Source: Actinomycetota bacterium
GTDB lineage: Bacteria > Actinomycetota > Thermoleophilia > Gaiellales > Gaiellaceae
Direction of reading: 5' to 3'
Length of the DNA stretch: 40,164 bases
Assembly (NCBI GenBank): GCA_013696805.1
Contig: JACCXX010000053.1
Coordinates: 1 to 40,164 of the forward strand
Of this stretch, positions 2,280 through 40,164 are shown piece after piece (position 1 is the stretch's first letter; each line of letters begins with the position of its first letter). The position numbers and the translations under genes were made by a program. A model generated the notes under the pieces. The model had not been told where the DNA came from. It saw only the letters and a program-made list of their open reading frames with translations, and made no database searches.

Positions 2280-3027
2280 TTACCTCGAGAAGAATCGAGA
2301 CTCCTGGACGAAGTCGAACGCGGACTACACCGATGAGCGCGCGCCCGCTGCGTGGGCCAGTCAGGAGATCGCCTGGGGGATGTGCAAGGCGCCGGAGTCG
2401 GAGGTGAAGATGCTGCCGGAGCTCGAGGGCAAAGACGTCATCGAGCTCGGCTGCGGAACGGCGTATTTCGGCGCGTGGCTGAAGCGGGCAGGGGCACGGC
2501 GCGTGGTCGGCGTCGACGTGACACCCGCGCAGCTCGAGACGGCGCGGCGCATGGACGAGGAGTTCGGGCTGGGTCTCGAGCTCGTCGAGGCGAACGCGGA
2601 GGAGACGGGGCTCCCCGAGGCGTCGTTCGACCTGGCCGTTTCGGAGTATGGCGCGTCGATCTGGTGCGATCCGTACAAGTGGGTGCCCGAGGCGGCGCGG
2701 CTGCTTCGACCCGGCGGAGAGCTCGTGTTTCTCCGCAATGCGACCCTGGCGGTGCTCTGCTGGAAGGACGAGGAAACGGCCGACACGCTCCAGCGTCCCC
2801 AACGAGGCTTGTACCGCATCGACTGGGAGGACGACGGCACGACGGAGTTCCAGATGGGGCACAGCGAGTGGGTGAAGGTTCTGCGCGGAAACGGTTTCGA
2901 GATTCTCGACCTGGCGGAGCTCTACGCGGACAAGGAGACGGCGAAGCACGCCTACTACGCGTTCAATCCCGAGTGGGCCCGGCGCTGGCCATGGGAAGAG
3001 ATTTGGCGCGCTCGTAAGACCGCGTGA
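2272..3027 (+). CDS. Class I SAM-dependent methyltransferase
   Basis: TTG start overlapping ndk end; [15 protein letters not shown] motif [24 protein letters not shown]. Confidence 0.85.
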
Positions 3028-3626
3028 GGGTCCCGCCGGCGCCACCTCTGCTCCTCGCCTCGATCTCCCCGCAGCGCCGAAAAATCCTCAGGCAGCTCGA
3101 GATCCCGTTCGACGCCGTCGGGCCTCGCTACGAAGAAACCCCTGCAAACCTACAAAAAGGGTCAGACCCCTCGACAATAGTTACGGAACACGCACGGGGA
3201 AAGGCCAGGTCGGTCGCGGACACGGCTGGGGATCGGCCCGTGCTCGGTGTGGACACGGCTGTCGTAGTCGACGACGAGGTGCTCGGCAAGCCCGCGCACG
3301 CCGTCGAGGCCGAGTCGATGCTCGAGCGGCTCTCGGGCCGAACGCACGAGGTCGTCTCGGGGCTTTGCCTCGTCACGCCTGCCTGGGAAGAGCTCCATCA
3401 CGAGACGACGCTCGTCAGCGTTCGTGAGCTCACTGCCCGCGACCTCGCGCAGTACCTCGGCAGCCGCGAATGGGAGAACCGCGCCGGTGGTTATGCGATC
3501 CAGGGCCTCGGCGCCAGCCTCGTCGAGCGCGTCGAAGGCGACTACCTGAACGTCGTCGGCCTGCCCGCCGCGCTCCTCGTGCGGCTCCTAGCAGAGCGTT
3601 TTGCAGGCATTTACGGGTTTGGCTAG
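3024..3626 (+). CDS. maf: Maf family nucleotide pyrophosphatase
   Basis: GTG start overlapping upstream stop; [63 protein letters not shown]. Confidence 0.92.
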
Positions 3627-3670
3627 TTACTAGCGTTTTCCCACCGTTTAACTACACTCGGGCGGGGCGA

Positions 3671-4726
3671 ATGGGCTTTCTAGGCTTCTTCAACGGCTTC
3701 GGCGGCCGCGACATGGCCGTCGACTTGGGCACAGCGAACACGCTGGTCTACGTCCGCGGGCGCGGAATCGTGCTCTCGGAGCCGTCGGTCGTCGCCATCG
3801 ACCAGCGGTCGGGTGAGGTGCACGCGGTCGGCGTCGAGGCCAAGCGGATGCTCGGCCGCACCCCGGGCACGATCGCCGCGATCAGGCCGCTGAAGGACGG
3901 CGTCATCGCCGACTTCGACGTCACGGAGCAGATGCTCCGCCACTTCATCCAGAAGGTCCACCAGCACCGCTTCGCACATCCGCGCGTGGTCGTCTGCGTC
4001 CCGTCCGGCGTGACCGGTGTCGAGAAGCGCGCCGTCGAGGAGGCGACGCTCTCCGCGGGCGCTCGCGAGGCGCACCTGATCGAGGAGCCGATGGCCGCCG
4101 CGATCGGAGCCGGGCTCCCAGTCTCCGAGCCGACGGGGAACATGATCGTCGACGTCGGCGGCGGCACCACCGAGGTCGCAGTCATCTCGCTCGGCGGCAT
4201 TGTCGTCTCCCAGTCCCTCCGGGTCGGCGGCGACGAGATGGACGAGGCGATCATCAGCCACATCAAGAAGGAGTACAAGCTCCTGATCGGCCAGCAGACG
4301 GCCGAGGAGATCAAGCTCGAGGTGGGCTCGGCGTTCCCCCTCAAGGAGGAGGTGCAGGCCGAGGTGCGAGGGCGCGACATGCTCACGGGCCTGCCGAAGA
4401 CGGTCATCCTCTCCTCCGACGAGGTGCGCCACGCGCTCGAGGATCCCGTCAGCCAGATCATCGACGCGATCCGCTCCACGCTCGACAAGACCCCGCCCGA
4501 GCTGGCTGCCGACATCATGGACCGCGGCATCGTCCTGGCCGGTGGCGGCGCGCTGCTCACCGGTCTCGACGAGCGCCTACGGCACGAGACGCAGATGCCG
4601 ACCCAGCTGGCCGAATCGCCGCTCACGTGCGTCGCGGTCGGCTCCGGGCGCAGCCTCGAGGTGCTCGAGGTCATGAACCGGGCTGCGAAAGCGCGTCGCC
4701 GCAGCCGCAACGGCTACCGTCGTTAG
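3671..4726 (+). CDS. mreB: Rod shape-determining protein MreB
   Basis: [74 protein letters not shown]; followed by mreC and mreD. Confidence 0.96.
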
Positions 4727-4759
4727 GCCATTTCCCGCTCTTCGTTAACCTCAAGGCCC

Positions 4760-5695
4760 GTGCCCAGGAAGCGCAGCCCGCGGGTGGCGGCGCTCGGCTC
4801 CCCGACCCGGCGGACGGTCGCCCCCTCGTACTCCTCTCGGCAGACAGGTCCGCTCAAGCGGCGCCTGATCGTTGCCGTGCTCCTGCTGGCCTCGCTCGCG
4901 ATGATCACCGTTTACTTCCGCGAGACGCCGAGTGGCGCCCTCCACGACTTCCAGAGCGTGGCCGCCAGCGCCATGAGGCCCTTCGAGATCGGCGCGCAGC
5001 GTGTTTCCCGCCCGTTCCGAGATGCCTACGGCTGGGCGGCCAACCTCGTTCACGCGAAGTCCGAGAACGAGCGCCTGCACCAGGAGCTCGAGGACGTGAG
5101 GTCACAGGTGATCGTGAGCGCCGACGCGCTGCGGGAGAACAAGCGGCTCAAGGACTTGCTCAAGTACCAGCGCGGCGCCACGTTCCCCGAGGACTTCCCG
5201 CGCAACCGCGCAGTGGCCGCCAGCGTGATGTCGAACCCGGCGGGGGAGTTCGAGCAGAAGATCATCATCTCCGCCGGATCGTCCGACGGCGTCCGGCTCT
5301 ATGACGCCGTCGTCACCGGACGCGGCCTCGTCGGGCACGTCTCGAAGGTCCTCCGCGATCAGTCCCGAGTGACGATGCTCACCGACCAGGAGAGCGCGGT
5401 CACCGCGCGCGCGGTCAAGACGGGCGCCATCGGCGTGCTGCGGCACGGTGAGGGCTCCGCACTCATTCTCGACCGCGTTCCGAAGGAGAAGTCCGTCGTG
5501 CAGAACGACATCGTCGTCACGGCGGGACGAGGCCAGGGGCGGCTCGGCTCCTTCTTCCCGGGAAACATCCCCGTCGGCTACGTGAACAGCGTCGGGCAGA
5601 CAGACGTCGATCTCTACCAGGACGTGCAGGTGCGCCCCTTCGTCGATTTCAGCGACCTCGACAGCGTGCTGGTGCTCGTCCCGAAGAAGCGCTGA
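4760..5695 (+). CDS. mreC: Rod shape-determining protein MreC
   Basis: N-terminal TM, coiled coil (ENERLHQELEDV), MreC beta domain (GLVGHVSKV...TDQESAVTARAV); between mreB and mreD. Confidence 0.92.
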   Translation: MPRKRSPRVAALGSPTRRTVAPSYSSRQTGPLKRRLIVAVLLLASLAMITVYFRETPSGALHDFQSVAASAMRPFEIGAQRVSRPFRDAYGWAANLVHAKSENERLHQELEDVRSQVIVSADALRENKRLKDLLKYQRGATFPEDFPRNRAVAASVMSNPAGEFEQKIIISAGSSDGVRLYDAVVTGRGLVGHVSKVLRDQSRVTMLTDQESAVTARAVKTGAIGVLRHGEGSALILDRVPKEKSVVQNDIVVTAGRGQGRLGSFFPGNIPVGYVNSVGQTDVDLYQDVQVRPFVDFSDLDSVLVLVPKKR

Positions 5696-34952: not shown

Positions 34953-35585
34953 TCAGGGAGCGGCGGCTTCGAATCCTGCTTCGTCGAGCAGGCCGCGCAG
35001 CCGTTGCAGGCCTGCGAACATCCGGCTCTTGATCGTACCTAGAGGCTCGCCGAGTAGATCCGCAAGCTCCGACTGGGTGTAGCCGCCGTAGTAGGCGAGC
35101 TCGATCGCCTCACGCTGCTCCGGTGGGAGTTGCCGGAGCGCCTCCTGGACGACCTCGCGTTTCGACCGCCGTTCGACAGCCTCGTCCGCGCCCGGCCCCG
35201 TAGGCACCGGCGCCGCTTCCGCGGGCTCGGTTCGGCGGCGCTCCTCACGTCGTACGAGATCGACGGAGCGCCGGTGCACGAAGGTGAGAATCCATGTGCT
35301 TGCCTTGGCACGTCGCCGGTCGAAGCGGTCGGCGGAGCGCCAGACCTGGAGGAAGGCCTCCTGGACGGCGTCCTCAGCCAGCGCAGCATCACGCAACACG
35401 CGCAGGGCAAGCCCGTAAGCGACGCGGCCGAAGCGGTCGTAGAGCTCCGCGAGCGCGGTCTCGTCAGAACGCGCGACGGCGCCGAGTAGCGCCTCGTCTG
35501 AAAGTTGTGCGGCGGCAGGCACGAGCTCAGGTCTGTTGGCTCTCCTCCGTGAACCCACATCGAGTCCCAGTTCGGCCGTGCACAT
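34953..35585 (-). CDS. ECF-type RNA polymerase sigma factor (SigK-like)
   Basis: YDRFGRVAYGLALRVLRDAALAEDAVQEAFLQVWRSADRFD...WILTFVHRRSVDLVRREERRR; LPPEQREAIELAYYGGYTQSELADLLGEPLGTIKSRMFAGLQRLR. Confidence 0.94.
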   Translation of the reverse strand: MCTAELGLDVGSRRRANRPELVPAAAQLSDEALLGAVARSDETALAELYDRFGRVAYGLALRVLRDAALAEDAVQEAFLQVWRSADRFDRRRAKASTWILTFVHRRSVDLVRREERRRTEPAEAAPVPTGPGADEAVERRSKREVVQEALRQLPPEQREAIELAYYGGYTQSELADLLGEPLGTIKSRMFAGLQRLRGLLDEAGFEAAAP

Positions 35586-35588
35586 GAC

Positions 35589-36293
35589 TCAAACCGATTC
35601 CGAGCGCACGAGCACCCGCCCCGTGGGCTGCGGTGCCCCGCCGCCTTGCTCGAGCGTCACTCCGACCTGCTCGTCGACGGACACCGGTTGGTCGAGGAGG
35701 ATTGGGGCGCAACCGGCCGTCCCGCCGCGGAACAGTCCGGCCGGCCTGTATGTCCTGTCCTTGATCACCCACGCTTCGTACGTCTTTCCCTTCGGCGCCG
35801 CCTCCAAGCCGCAGACAACCAGGGCGGCGGCGCCGTCGTCGTCCACCAGCAGTCCGCCCTGAGCGCCTCTGATCTTCACGACCTTGGCGTCACCGCCGAG
35901 GATCTGCGAAATGTCGGACAGCTCCGCATTCGCCGACCGCTGCCGGTCGAGGTCGCGAGAGAGCGAGTTCGCCCACAGCCCGACGCCAATGGCTACAACG
36001 GCGGCGGCGGCCGCTGCGGCGGCGGTCACCGGGAGGAGCCAGCGGCGGCGCGGGAACTGAATGATCTTGGCGCCGTTCTCGGAGCGTGCCGCCTCCAGGA
36101 TCCGCTCGCGCAACCCGGCCGGCGGCTCGGTGCTCTCGCCGTAAGCGAGGGCAATCGTCGCCTCCTGCAGATCGGCCAACTGCTCTTGGCAATCTGCGCA
36201 CTCGTCGAGGTGGCGTTCGAAGGCGTCGTGGTCTGCGGGCTCGAGCGCGTCGAGCGCGTATGGAGCTACGAGGTCGTGAAGTTGATGATTCAT
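35589..36293 (-). CDS. RskA-like transmembrane anti-sigma factor
   Basis: Zinc anti-sigma motif HLDECADCQEQL, central TM (LLPVTAAAAAAAAVVAIGVGLW), RskA-type C-terminus (APKGKTYEAWVIKDRTYRPAGLFRGG). Confidence 0.92.
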   Translation of the reverse strand: MNHQLHDLVAPYALDALEPADHDAFERHLDECADCQEQLADLQEATIALAYGESTEPPAGLRERILEAARSENGAKIIQFPRRRWLLPVTAAAAAAAAVVAIGVGLWANSLSRDLDRQRSANAELSDISQILGGDAKVVKIRGAQGGLLVDDDGAAALVVCGLEAAPKGKTYEAWVIKDRTYRPAGLFRGGTAGCAPILLDQPVSVDEQVGVTLEQGGGAPQPTGRVLVRSESV

Positions 36294-36335
36294 GGGCAAA
36301 AGTGATTCGACTTACTGTCCGATACGGTTTGAAGT

Positions 36336-37082
36336 CTAGAAATAGTAGGGCACTAGCTCCTGGGCCCCGAGTGCGTACCACGCTCCGAAAACGAGGCTCA
36401 CGAGCCCGAGGACCGGGGCGAGACGTCCATACGAGCGGCTGATTGGATTCGAGGTGAGCGTGATCCCGAGTCCGGTCGTCAACAAGGTCATCGAGACGGC
36501 CGTGAAGAAGGCGAGGATTCCGAGCGCGGCCACAGCCACGAGCTTTCCGTCGATCGTGCTGATCAGCAGGATCCCGACGCCAGCGCTGCCGCCCATTCCG
36601 TGGAGCAGGCCGATCGAGAAGGCCTGGAGCGGTGACCGCGCGCGCGCCGGGTGCTGGTGAGCATGCGAGGAGCTCCTTTCGTGCGAATGGAGGTGAACGT
36701 GCCGGTCTTCTGCGTGGTCGTGCGCATGCGCGTGCAGAGCGCCGCGGCGCCAGCGAATCAGCAGCCAGACAGCGAGGCCCACGATCAGGATTCCGACCGC
36801 GGTCTCGGCCCCTCGCTGCACGGCGTCCGGCAGAAAGGCGCTGTAGAGGACGATCGGCAATCCGAAGGCGAAGAGCGTGACCGCATGACCGAGGCCCCAA
36901 GCGACGCCGAGACGGGCCGCATCGCGCGCACGGCTTCCCTTCGTTGCAAGCAAGGTTGTGACAGCTGCCAGGTGGTCGGGATCGGTCGCGTGTCGCAAAC
37001 CGAGCAGCACGGCGACCGCGAGCACGACGACAAGCGACGCGCCGTCGGAGAACGAAGCGAGATGGTCATCGAGACCGAACAT
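36336..37082 (-). CDS. NicO-type nickel/cobalt transporter-like protein with His-rich loop
   Basis: LLGLRHATDPDHLAAVTTLL (HxxxxDH), HAHAHDHAEDRHVHLHSHERSSSHAHQH, GLLHGMGGSAGVGIL. Confidence 0.83.
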   Translation of the reverse strand: MFGLDDHLASFSDGASLVVVLAVAVLLGLRHATDPDHLAAVTTLLATKGSRARDAARLGVAWGLGHAVTLFAFGLPIVLYSAFLPDAVQRGAETAVGILIVGLAVWLLIRWRRGALHAHAHDHAEDRHVHLHSHERSSSHAHQHPARARSPLQAFSIGLLHGMGGSAGVGILLISTIDGKLVAVAALGILAFFTAVSMTLLTTGLGITLTSNPISRSYGRLAPVLGLVSLVFGAWYALGAQELVPYYF

Positions 37083-38413
37083 CAGAGCACCTCCGGTAGG
37101 GCGTTCAGGGTGATGCCGACTCCGACCGCCAGGATCACGAGCGCGCTGACTGCGGGGAGGGCGTTGACCAGGGGGCCGTCGAGCCGGAGGCGCCCGAAGA
37201 CGCGGCGGGCCAGGACGGCGACGAGGCCGATTGCGGTGATGGTCGCGGCGAGGCCGACGCTGAACGCCACGATCAGGGCGAGACCGAGGCCGATGCGATG
37301 GAGGGCAATCGCCGACAGCAAGACGACGAGCGCCGAGGGGCACGGAAGCAGGCCGGCGGCGACGCCGACGCCGAGGAGGCCGCCGCGCCCATAGCCGTTG
37401 TCGTGGCTGTGTTCGTGGCCGTGGTGGTGGTGCCCCTGGTGATGAGCCCGCCGATGCCGAAGGCGCTTCAGGAGCACCGAGGCGCCGACCGCGACGACCA
37501 ACAGGCCCGAGGTCAGCGTGAGCCACGGATACAGCCGTTCCGGGACGATGAACTGCGACAGGGCCAGGGTGATTAGGCCAATCGCGAAGACGCCCACCGT
37601 GTGGGAGACCGTGACGATCAGCCCGAGCGCAACCGCATGGCGAGGTCGGCCGCGGGAGCCGACGAGGTAGCCGGCGACGATCGCCTTGCCGTGACCCGGG
37701 GTCAAAGCATGCGCGGCTCCCCAGAAGGCCGCGATGAGAAGGGAGAGCAGAATGACACCGAGTCCGAGGTCCTCTCGCGCGATGAGGCTTGCGAAGCCTC
37801 CGGAGGAGCTGCGCACCGTAGGCGCCTCACCGAGCGCGGGCGGCTCACCGGCGCCGGAGCCGAGCGTAACCGCAGCAGTCCCGTATTCGACGTTGAGGGG
37901 CTCCTTGAGCAGATCTCGCGGGTACCTCCGCAACTCGTCGCTCACGCTGCGAGAACTGACGCTTGCCGACTCGATTCGCGCCCCTCGACTCGCGCGCACG
38001 ATGACCTCTTCCCAGCCGATTCGCGAGCCGAACGACTTGTCGCGGAAGCGCAGCGAGCGGCCGCTCAGGTTCGACTCGTAGACCGCCTCGAAGCGGAGTG
38101 TCTTCAGCCCTCCGGCCCCCGGGCGGAACGCGACCGAGGAGTCCAGGAGCCGAAGAGAAGCGCGCTTCCCGTCAACGTGGAGCTGGAGGCTTTCGGCGAG
38201 CTCCCTCGCGTATCCGGCCCGCCGAACCCGTTTCCCCTCCTGGAACGTCGGGATCTCAGCGAGGTCGAGAACCTGTTTGACGTAAATCGTCTCGCCCGAC
38301 ACTTCGACGGCGCTGAAGCGGTTGACCGTGAAGTTCCCGAGGGGGTGCGCGAACGCGTCCGCAGAAATGACGAGCGCGCCTAGCAGTGTGACGAAAACGA
38401 CGAAACGCTTCAT
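37082..38413 (-). CDS. NicO-type nickel/cobalt transporter with N-terminal extracytoplasmic domain
   Basis: Signal peptide then HPLGNFTVNRFSAVEV; GAAHALTPGHGKAIVAGYLVGSRG; HHQGHHHHGHEHSHDNGYG; GLLPCPSALVVLLSAIALHR. Confidence 0.85.
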   Translation of the reverse strand: MKRFVVFVTLLGALVISADAFAHPLGNFTVNRFSAVEVSGETIYVKQVLDLAEIPTFQEGKRVRRAGYARELAESLQLHVDGKRASLRLLDSSVAFRPGAGGLKTLRFEAVYESNLSGRSLRFRDKSFGSRIGWEEVIVRASRGARIESASVSSRSVSDELRRYPRDLLKEPLNVEYGTAAVTLGSGAGEPPALGEAPTVRSSSGGFASLIAREDLGLGVILLSLLIAAFWGAAHALTPGHGKAIVAGYLVGSRGRPRHAVALGLIVTVSHTVGVFAIGLITLALSQFIVPERLYPWLTLTSGLLVVAVGASVLLKRLRHRRAHHQGHHHHGHEHSHDNGYGRGGLLGVGVAAGLLPCPSALVVLLSAIALHRIGLGLALIVAFSVGLAATITAIGLVAVLARRVFGRLRLDGPLVNALPAVSALVILAVGVGITLNALPEVL

Positions 38414-39726
38414 GACGCGTACCTCCTGGCGACGGGCGCCCAGACGAGGGAAAAGTGGGGGTTGGTGTCGATCGCCCTGGCGAACCAGCCGCGAGCAGCG
38501 TCGCTTCGGCCCAGGCAGCGCTCAATCATTCCGCGGTGAAAGAACTTCGAGGCATCGAGGGAGCCGAGCCGGAGCGCGCGGCGTGAATAGCCGAGCGCCT
38601 CCTGGCAGTGGCCGTTTCGCGTCAGCGCCCAGGCCAGGACGTCGTCGGCTTCGATGCTCGGCCGCTCACGGTGCGCTCTGCGGGCGGAGACGAGCGACTG
38701 CCGCAAGCGACGGCCGTGGTCGACGTTGAAGAGTGCGATCTCGAGGTCGGTGCGTACGCCGTTTGCGCGGAGCAGCTGCTCGATGGCGCCGACGAGCGCG
38801 AACTGGTCGCGTGCCTCGCGCTGGCGGCCGGCGGCAAGCTGGAGATCGCCGAGGGTTGCGACGAACTGCGGAAGCGGAGTCTGCTCGGTCGCTTGGCTCG
38901 CAAGCGCTACTCCTCGCTCGAGGTGACCGTCTGCCGCCTCGACGCGAGCGAGCCCGTCCAGCGCGAAGGCGTAGCCGGGGAACGCGCGGAGGGCGGCGCG
39001 AAAGTGTCTGCCCGCCTTCCCGACCTGCCCCTGGGCGAAGGCCAGCTTGCCGAGCTCGGTGTGCGTCCAGGCTGTCGGCTCGGGCTGGCCACCCGTGGCG
39101 TCGAGTGCGAGGTTCATCGCCTGCTCGGCCGCACGGGGCCGGCCGAGCAGCTCGCGTGCGTAGGACACCCTCGCATAGGCGCCGAGGCTCGGCTTCAGCT
39201 CGGCCATCCGGTCAAAGGTGCGAAACGCCTGCTCGTAACGGCCCAGCTCGATGAGTGCGTCGCCGACGACGCCGTAGTTTCGTGCCGAGTACGGGGCGAG
39301 CCGTTGCGCACGGCGGCCGAGCGCGAGCGCGCGGCGGAAATCGTGTCGGGCGAGCGCCAACGAGCCGAGCGCGCCCAGCGTGAGCGGGTCCCGGGGGGCA
39401 AGGGCCAGCGAGCGGCGCAGAGCGCGGTCGCTACGCGAGTAGAAGTCGGCGCTGCCGGTCTCACGCGCCCGCTGCTGGTAGGCGAGGCCGAGCAGCGTGA
39501 ACGAGCGTGAGTCGTCGGGTTCGGAGCGCAGCTTGTCCTGAAGCGAGCGGATGAGGCCGGCCGTGTCGCCGGCGGCGAAACCGGCCTCGAGCCGATCGCC
39601 CGTCGGGCCAGCCACAAGGGGTCCGGCGGCGGCGGGCTCTCCCGAGTTGCGGAGAGCGCCACCGGCGAGTAGGACGGTGGCGGCGAGCGCCGCCACCGTC
39701 CCTGCGAGTGCGAGTCGTTTTCGCAT
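38410..39726 (-). CDS. Secreted/periplasmic TPR-repeat protein
   Basis: Signal-like N-terminus; multiple TPRs (FTLLGLAYQQRAR, LGALGSLALARHDFRRALALGRRAQRLAP, YGVVGDALIELGRYEQAFRTFDRMAELKP). Confidence 0.88.
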   Translation of the reverse strand: MRKRLALAGTVAALAATVLLAGGALRNSGEPAAAGPLVAGPTGDRLEAGFAAGDTAGLIRSLQDKLRSEPDDSRSFTLLGLAYQQRARETGSADFYSRSDRALRRSLALAPRDPLTLGALGSLALARHDFRRALALGRRAQRLAPYSARNYGVVGDALIELGRYEQAFRTFDRMAELKPSLGAYARVSYARELLGRPRAAEQAMNLALDATGGQPEPTAWTHTELGKLAFAQGQVGKAGRHFRAALRAFPGYAFALDGLARVEAADGHLERGVALASQATEQTPLPQFVATLGDLQLAAGRQREARDQFALVGAIEQLLRANGVRTDLEIALFNVDHGRRLRQSLVSARRAHRERPSIEADDVLAWALTRNGHCQEALGYSRRALRLGSLDASKFFHRGMIERCLGRSDAARGWFARAIDTNPHFSLVWAPVARRYAS

Positions 39727-39745
39727 TGCCTCGCGACCTCCGTCC

Positions 39746-40164
39746 CTACGGCTGAGGAGGATTGTCGTGTTGCCGATTGCGGCCGTCAGAAGGCGTTCCC
39801 AGGTAGGGGAAGCCCGCCGTCAGTGCCGCGTCGTCCGTATTGACGCCGTCACCGATGCGGTTGGCGACGTAGTTCGCTCCGCCGACCACGCGGACCGCGA
39901 TGTCCGTCACGTCGTCTTTTGGCCGGCGTCCGTTCGGCCAGGCAGCCGGATCGGGTGCCGGTGTGGCCAACGGGCCCATGCGCCGCTGTGCAGCGAAAGC
40001 CGTGGGCGCCACTGCCAGGTTCAGCCGGAGCAGCTCGGAGAGCCGCCGGTCACCCGGCTGGTACTTGAGCAGCAGGTCGACCAGGTCCTCGCGACCCGTC
40101 GTCTCGGCGGGTACGCCGAACACGAGTTGGAGGGCGAGGGCGAGCCGCGGGTTGACGTAATAGT
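39746..40164 (-). CDS. DUF4331 family protein, C-terminal part (start outside window)
   Basis: ELLRLNLAVAPT...WPNGRRPKDDVTDIAVRVVGGANYVANRIGDGVNTDDAALTAGFPYLGTPSDG, characteristic of the DUF4331 C-terminus; the frame stays open to the window edge. Confidence 0.82.
   Translation of the reverse strand, partial: YYVNPRLALALQLVFGVPAETTGREDLVDLLLKYQPGDRRLSELLRLNLAVAPTAFAAQRRMGPLATPAPDPAAWPNGRRPKDDVTDIAVRVVGGANYVANRIGDGVNTDDAALTAGFPYLGTPSDGRNRQHDNPPQP

Follow-up and report, generated by a model that had tools for sequence, protein, structure and literature searches.

In Haemophilus, the ZevA/ZevB system (DUF1007 plus a NicO-like protein) pairs a periplasmic protein bearing an N-terminal His-Pro with a NicO permease. 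The anglerases Ang-1 and Ang-2 carry a signal peptide, an N-terminal histidine (His1), a beta-sandwich and a permease in a single chain, for which metal fishing has been proposed, and they bind Cu with a Kd of 62-74 nM and Ni with a Kd of 220 nM (Franco Cairo et al. 2025, PMC12537917). The main text of that paper mentions neither DUF4331 nor NicO nor the motif HPLGN. On the regulatory side, the redox cysteines 133 and 183 of mycobacterial SigK are important (PMC7509140). Here, an undescribed gene set common to bacteria of several phyla is compared with these systems.

The window, that is, the whole stretch of 40,164 nucleotides analysed, is contig C43 of a draft genome that is 72% complete. 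Its last part holds the following features, given in the order of transcription:

39746..40164, minus strand: C-terminal part of DUF4331 (copy 2 of a tandem pair); PF14224, 85.3 bits, profile positions 291-421 of 421
38410..39726, minus strand: TPR protein of 438 aa, putatively secreted or anchored; TPR families above cut-off, hydrophobic N-terminus in the sequence
37082..38413, minus strand: NicO-A permease; PF03824, 45.5 bits
36336..37082, minus strand: NicO-B, a short NicO permease with HATDPDH and a His-rich loop; PF03824, 40.5 bits
36305..36330, minus strand: ECF promoter-like element AAACCG-N15-CGAAT, one mismatch, before the anti-sigma and sigma genes
35589..36293, minus strand: membrane anti-sigma factor of the RskA type; RskA_C, 78.7 bits (cut-off 29.4); NF052375, 171.5 bits (cut-off 100)
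34953..35585, minus strand: SigK-like ECF sigma factor; Sigma70_r2 and r4_2; best NCBIfam match SigK, 177 bits, below the cut-off of 226

The genes are closely packed: a gap of 19 nt separates DUF4331 from TPR, TPR and NicO-A overlap by 4 nt (ATGA), NicO-A and NicO-B overlap by 1 nt, and gaps of 42 nt and 3 nt precede the anti-sigma and sigma genes, respectively. The first-pass annotation had described six minus-strand genes of these families, joined by such overlaps and gaps, with His-rich loops in both NicO proteins; Pfam and NCBIfam profiles and the coordinates bear out all of this, and the loop is present in both proteins. The two permeases that it had treated together are indeed both NicO proteins, but they differ in kind: NicO-A has two domains, is tipped by His1 and resembles RcnA, and NicO-B is short and carries HX4DH.

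The window cuts off inside DUF4331, leaving that gene truncated at its 5' end, because contig C43 ends there. The end of contig C45 of the same genome shares an exact 127 nt with the window end in the right orientation, which is typical of an assembly-graph overlap, and the two contigs probably join at this point. C45 supplies the rest of DUF4331; it also carries the other DUF4331 gene of the tandem and a carbamate-type amino-acid kinase gene, these two at positions 2788-5189 (C45 of G000, L133). The joined strand would read amino-acid kinase (carbamate kinase by sequence), DUF4331 copy 1, DUF4331 copy 2, TPR, NicO-A, NicO-B, anti-sigma, sigma and ornithine carbamoyltransferase; with the kinase upstream and the carbamoyltransferase downstream, the cassette is flanked by two arginine-pathway genes. 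The directon extends upstream onto C45 and downstream through ornithine carbamoyltransferase, rhomboid and zincin genes. In a sister species, a kinase likewise lies upstream of DUF4331, and the downstream gene order is identical.

Forty distant NicO-A loci, those with enough upstream sequence among 80 named genome loci, were scored for gene order. DUF4331 lies within 6 kb in 36 of them, TPR also in 36, and 34 keep DUF4331-TPR-NicO-A in this order on one strand, which places the grouping beyond chance. The conserved unit is this set of three genes, found in Actinomycetota, Chloroflexota, Cyanobacteria and Acidobacteriota. The first-pass annotation proposed to check whether the six-gene set recurs across distant genomes; this linkage does, but NicO-B and the sigma/anti-sigma pair are optional, lineage-dependent additions; the sigma family occurs within 9.5 kb in 11/40 distant loci. 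The genes that recur across phyla are limited to NicO-A, TPR, DUF4331 and the sigma pair, with no further recurrent partner gene in the distant loci. The overlap between TPR and NicO-A also recurs in distant phyla, and within the same family and order, TPR and DUF4331 accompany NicO-A wherever the contig is long enough. Across 296 sampled genomes of the phylum, DUF4331 is present in 29/30 genomes with a full NicO-A vs 21/266 without NicO-A (Fisher p about 1e-25, a value that takes no account of ancestry), and it is also found alone. A search limited to open-access literature found no mention of DUF4331 or PF14224. The cassette on one contig filed under Burkholderiales (L073) is most similar to those of Actinomycetota, reflecting contamination or transfer. 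Behind the cyanobacterial cassettes (L075, L078, L080, L081, L089, L090, L097, L100, L103) comes a gene for a secreted protein of ~240 aa, seen nowhere else. The cyanobacterial carriers of the cassette include a cultured Nostoc, N. mirabile CHAB5784.

NicO-A consists of a predicted signal peptide (aa 1-22), a His1-tipped beta-sandwich (aa 23-185) and a NicO permease with its His-rich loop at about aa 323-337. Both NicO proteins of the window exceed the PF03824 gathering cut-off of 27.7, and 78/78 NicO-A relatives match NicO. The stretch A22/H23PLGNFT is conserved, and His23 stands directly after an Ala-ending signal-peptide site, so that cleavage at this Ala-x-Ala-type site is predicted to expose it as His1; for NicO-A and DUF4331 alike, such sites were read from the sequence without a trained predictor. 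A signal peptide followed directly by His1 is present in 17/17 readable relatives found by homology and also in those from an HMM search of the phylum. HPLGNFT seems invariant in 60 sequences from genome contigs, a set that is biased because AHPLGNFT served as the search pattern; the His1 claim rests on the sets found without that pattern, one member of which (L143) has HPLGT. In the mature chain, Asp28 and Glu31 are invariant among 78 sequences, and the PGHGK/His motifs are conserved together with His1 and the His-rich loop.

The AlphaFold2 model of NicO-A (mean pLDDT 86.9) shows a beta-sandwich of ~160 residues followed by membrane helices. For NicO-A, Foldseek ranks the Cu-bound anglerase domain of Ang-1 (9GCE) first (probability 1.00, E = 1.4e-3, TM 0.38), a weak fold match; the Zn-binding ZrgA and PA4063 appear at lower ranks. 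A sequence-profile comparison of the outer domain with Ang-2, whose profile comprised two sequences only, detected no homology. Two further identities were considered and dropped. Pfam matches to ZrgA were ascribed to the His-rich loop, and a ZevA/DUF1007 identity was rejected, PF06226 being absent among the 25 Pfam families listed for 78 NicO-A members at E values up to 10. DUF1007 was found in none of 61 relatives, and the control genomes were equally silent.

A second processed N-terminus is predicted in DUF4331. Wherever the N-terminus is readable in the alignment (52 rows), His stands at predicted mature position 3, and position -1 is Ala in 50 and Gly in 2. In addition, 16/16 leaderless members start with Met-(Ala/Ser/Pro)-(Asp/Ser/His/Asn)-His; that is, their translation starts one codon ahead of the predicted mature end of the exported forms, so that Met removal would yield an identical X-X-His end. 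A free amino terminus of the form X-X-His is an ATCUN motif, a site for Cu(II)/Ni(II). Two routes of making an N-terminus, by cleavage and by Met removal, thus appear to converge on a putative metal-binding end in this family. The AlphaFold2 model of DUF4331 has a pLDDT of 82.7, and neither sequence nor fold gave a confident match in the PDB.

Cu(II) and Ni(II) are the metals to which the predicted His1 and ATCUN ends alike point (for His1, PMC12537917), and membership of the NicO family favours Ni/Co. The envelope transition-metal module proposed by the first-pass annotation gains from recurrence across phyla, but its metal and its direction, acquisition or efflux, stay inferred. An unlikely reading, although well short of negligible, is homeostasis specific to Ni/Co, through either RcnA-like efflux or the supply of Ni; DUF4331 and TPR would then be periplasmic auxiliaries, and the N-termini would relay no metal. 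It would accommodate two NicO permeases, the HX4DH signature of NicO-B and the best NCBIfam match of NicO-A, the RcnA-like subfamily, at 105 bits; however, this score is below the cut-off of 195, and the conserved N-termini are left unexplained. When lineage is ignored, nickel enzymes seem to point the same way, since NiSOD is present in 22/30 genomes with NicO-A vs 55/266 without (p = 1e-8) and urease co-occurs with NicO-A as well (p = 7e-4). NiSOD is equally frequent in same-family genomes without NicO-A, and these co-occurrences were dropped as proof of nickel because they are confounded by lineage. Moreover, near the cassette no metal riboswitch, Ni/Co or other, reached the gathering threshold, and neither NiSOD nor urease was found in the home genome, at its 72% completeness.

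As to regulation, GAACC-N16-CGAA(T/C) lies in 21 of the 22 distinct DUF4331 upstream regions from the family and order, starting 53-99 nt 5' of the start codon. The spacing is fixed at N16, with zero matches at nine other spacings tested. The stricter GAACCG form gives 82 sites vs 1 for the reversed control in 41 genomes (that of the host and those of 40 relatives). Strict sites number five in the 1.64 Mb of the home genome, and two of them stand in front of its two DUF4331 copies. Within the family, the sigma pair accompanies the cassette either downstream of it or divergently, and in nine loci a reverse copy of the promoter faces the divergent sigma gene. From these positions, we infer that the home sigma factor reads GAACC-N16-CGAA(T/C). 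In the window, the sole match to [AG]AACC-N16-CGAA[TC] is the one-mismatch copy in the gap between NicO-B and anti-sigma, and a sister species (L051) has a perfect GAACCG copy in the same position; the sigma/anti-sigma pair is therefore probably also under its own promoter. A single transcription unit, as the genes had been read at first, does not agree with this copy or with a sigma-type promoter before each tandem DUF4331. Outside the order, the promoter is rare (3/41 upstream regions in a mostly distant set of DUF4331 genes), which makes the regulation lineage-specific.

Genes behind other promoter sites include those for proteins resembling Ferritin_2 (eight judged by sequence, counting the home genome, of which three were also compared with Pfam), SPW, DUF4383, a cupredoxin-like protein, FtsH and a leaderless DUF4331, and several sites have no plausible gene behind them. 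With Ferritin_2, SPW, DUF4383 and cupredoxin-like predicted targets outside the module, the sigma factor is no dedicated metal switch; its apparent regulon seems wider than the cassette and is not obviously metal-related. The claim of a module under its own sigma factor thus stands in part: position and the conserved promoter tie the two together, but the predicted targets reach beyond the module and the sigma pair is optional. Among individual sites, a secreted Ferritin_2 gene lies behind the same ECF promoter at L164 (G000:C25:28100), and related Ferritin_2 genes recur behind such sites in relatives. Two other matches in the home genome lie in front of a gene for a small secreted membrane protein that has no Pfam match (L165, G000:C42:2981) and in front of FtsH (L168, C116:6972), the latter recurring in L206. 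At L229, a strict site precedes a small secreted cupredoxin-like protein whose Copper-bind score of 20.3 bits is just below the cut-off.

The envelope character of the predicted targets (Ferritin_2, SPW, DUF4383, possibly FtsH) would also suit a NicO-type permease that moves no metal, in a cassette for general envelope-stress or secreted-protein maintenance whose His-rich and N-terminal motifs are structural. This explanation could further draw on the Pfam match of NicO-A to DsbD_2, on CcdA among its Foldseek matches and on a DUF4331 without a solved or confidently matching fold, but it is improbable given that His1, the His-rich loop and the PGHGK/His motifs are conserved in NicO-A and that start codon and cleavage site converge on X-X-His in DUF4331. 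An accidental link between the cassette and an unrelated, adjacent sigma pair would fit the scarcity of that pair in distant loci and the rarity of the promoter outside the order, but is very hard to reconcile with a pair that accompanies the cassette either downstream or divergently in the family, with one and the same promoter on either side, and with the placement of two of the five strict home-genome sites.

Based on the computed cassette, its linkage, the promoter motif and the conserved N-termini, the reading toward which we lean is an envelope module that captures and transports Cu(II)/Ni(II) (square-planar-type) under an autoregulated ECF sigma factor. DUF4331 would be exported, processed to a free X-X-His (ATCUN) N-terminus and loaded with metal. 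TPR, translationally coupled to NicO-A, may tether the parts. NicO-A would then pass metal from His1, on its mobile beta-sandwich, to its own NicO channel, with NicO-B as an accessory permease. In the host's order, the set would be transcribed from GAACC-N16-CGAA(T/C) promoters by the SigK-like sigma factor, which would autoregulate, be held by the RskA-type anti-sigma factor and serve other envelope genes too. A broader proposal is put forward only tentatively: DUF4331 may be a widespread family whose conserved role is the free X-X-His (ATCUN) terminus, which signal-peptide cleavage would produce where the protein is exported and Met removal where it is cytosolic. Together with TPR, it may pass Cu(II)/Ni(II) to a second metal-gripping N-terminus, the His1 of a NicO permease, which would make a protein relay of processed N-termini in several phyla.

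If the reading of the module is true, it would be a new route for metals across the cell surface. For DUF4331, which is widespread and without known function, the convergence gives a prediction that is cheap to test, Cu/Ni binding at the free X-X-His. His1 'angling' would extend from HupE/UreJ-2 to NicO permeases and gain a soluble partner, and one SigK-like ECF group acquires a promoter along with a list of predicted targets.

Compared with the known systems, the regulator resembles mycobacterial SigK/RskA in joining an ECF sigma to an RskA anti-sigma factor (PMC7509140), but the home sigma scores 177 bits against the NF007228 cut-off of 226, has other predicted targets and lacks both SigK redox cysteines, its sole Cys being at position 2. 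NicO-B shares HX4DH (HATDPDH) with the HoxN/NixA NiCoT permeases (TIGR00802); however, it reaches 18.1 bits against a cut-off of 333, is shorter and has a His-rich loop. Like the RcnA-type Ni/Co efflux permease (NF007454/PRK10019), NicO-A belongs to the NicO family and has a PGHGK-type motif and a His-rich loop, but it carries an extra secreted domain and stays below the curated cut-off (NicO-A 105 and the other NicO protein 39, against 195 bits). ZevA/ZevB is a lead only: an N-terminal His-Pro and a NicO permease are the likeness, and no DUF1007 match is among the Pfam families listed for NicO-A or in 61 relatives.

In NicO-A, as in the anglerases (HupE/UreJ-2 fusions), a predicted signal peptide is directly followed by His1 and the same chain ends in a metal permease; a beta-sandwich is modelled in between. 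The anglerase permease is HupE_UreJ_2 (PF13795), a family absent from the home genome. At another locus (L150, G218:C25), an Ang-2-type HupE/UreJ-2 protein adjoins a metallophosphatase-like gene, as reported for the Ang-2 neighbourhood. Because the permease of NicO-A is NicO (PF03824) and its outer domain has no detectable sequence homology to the anglerases, it is kept outside that class, while the sequence features and the model suggest an anglerase-like architecture. NicO-A also differs from the anglerases in its almost constant linkage to DUF4331 and TPR and in its occurrence in several phyla.
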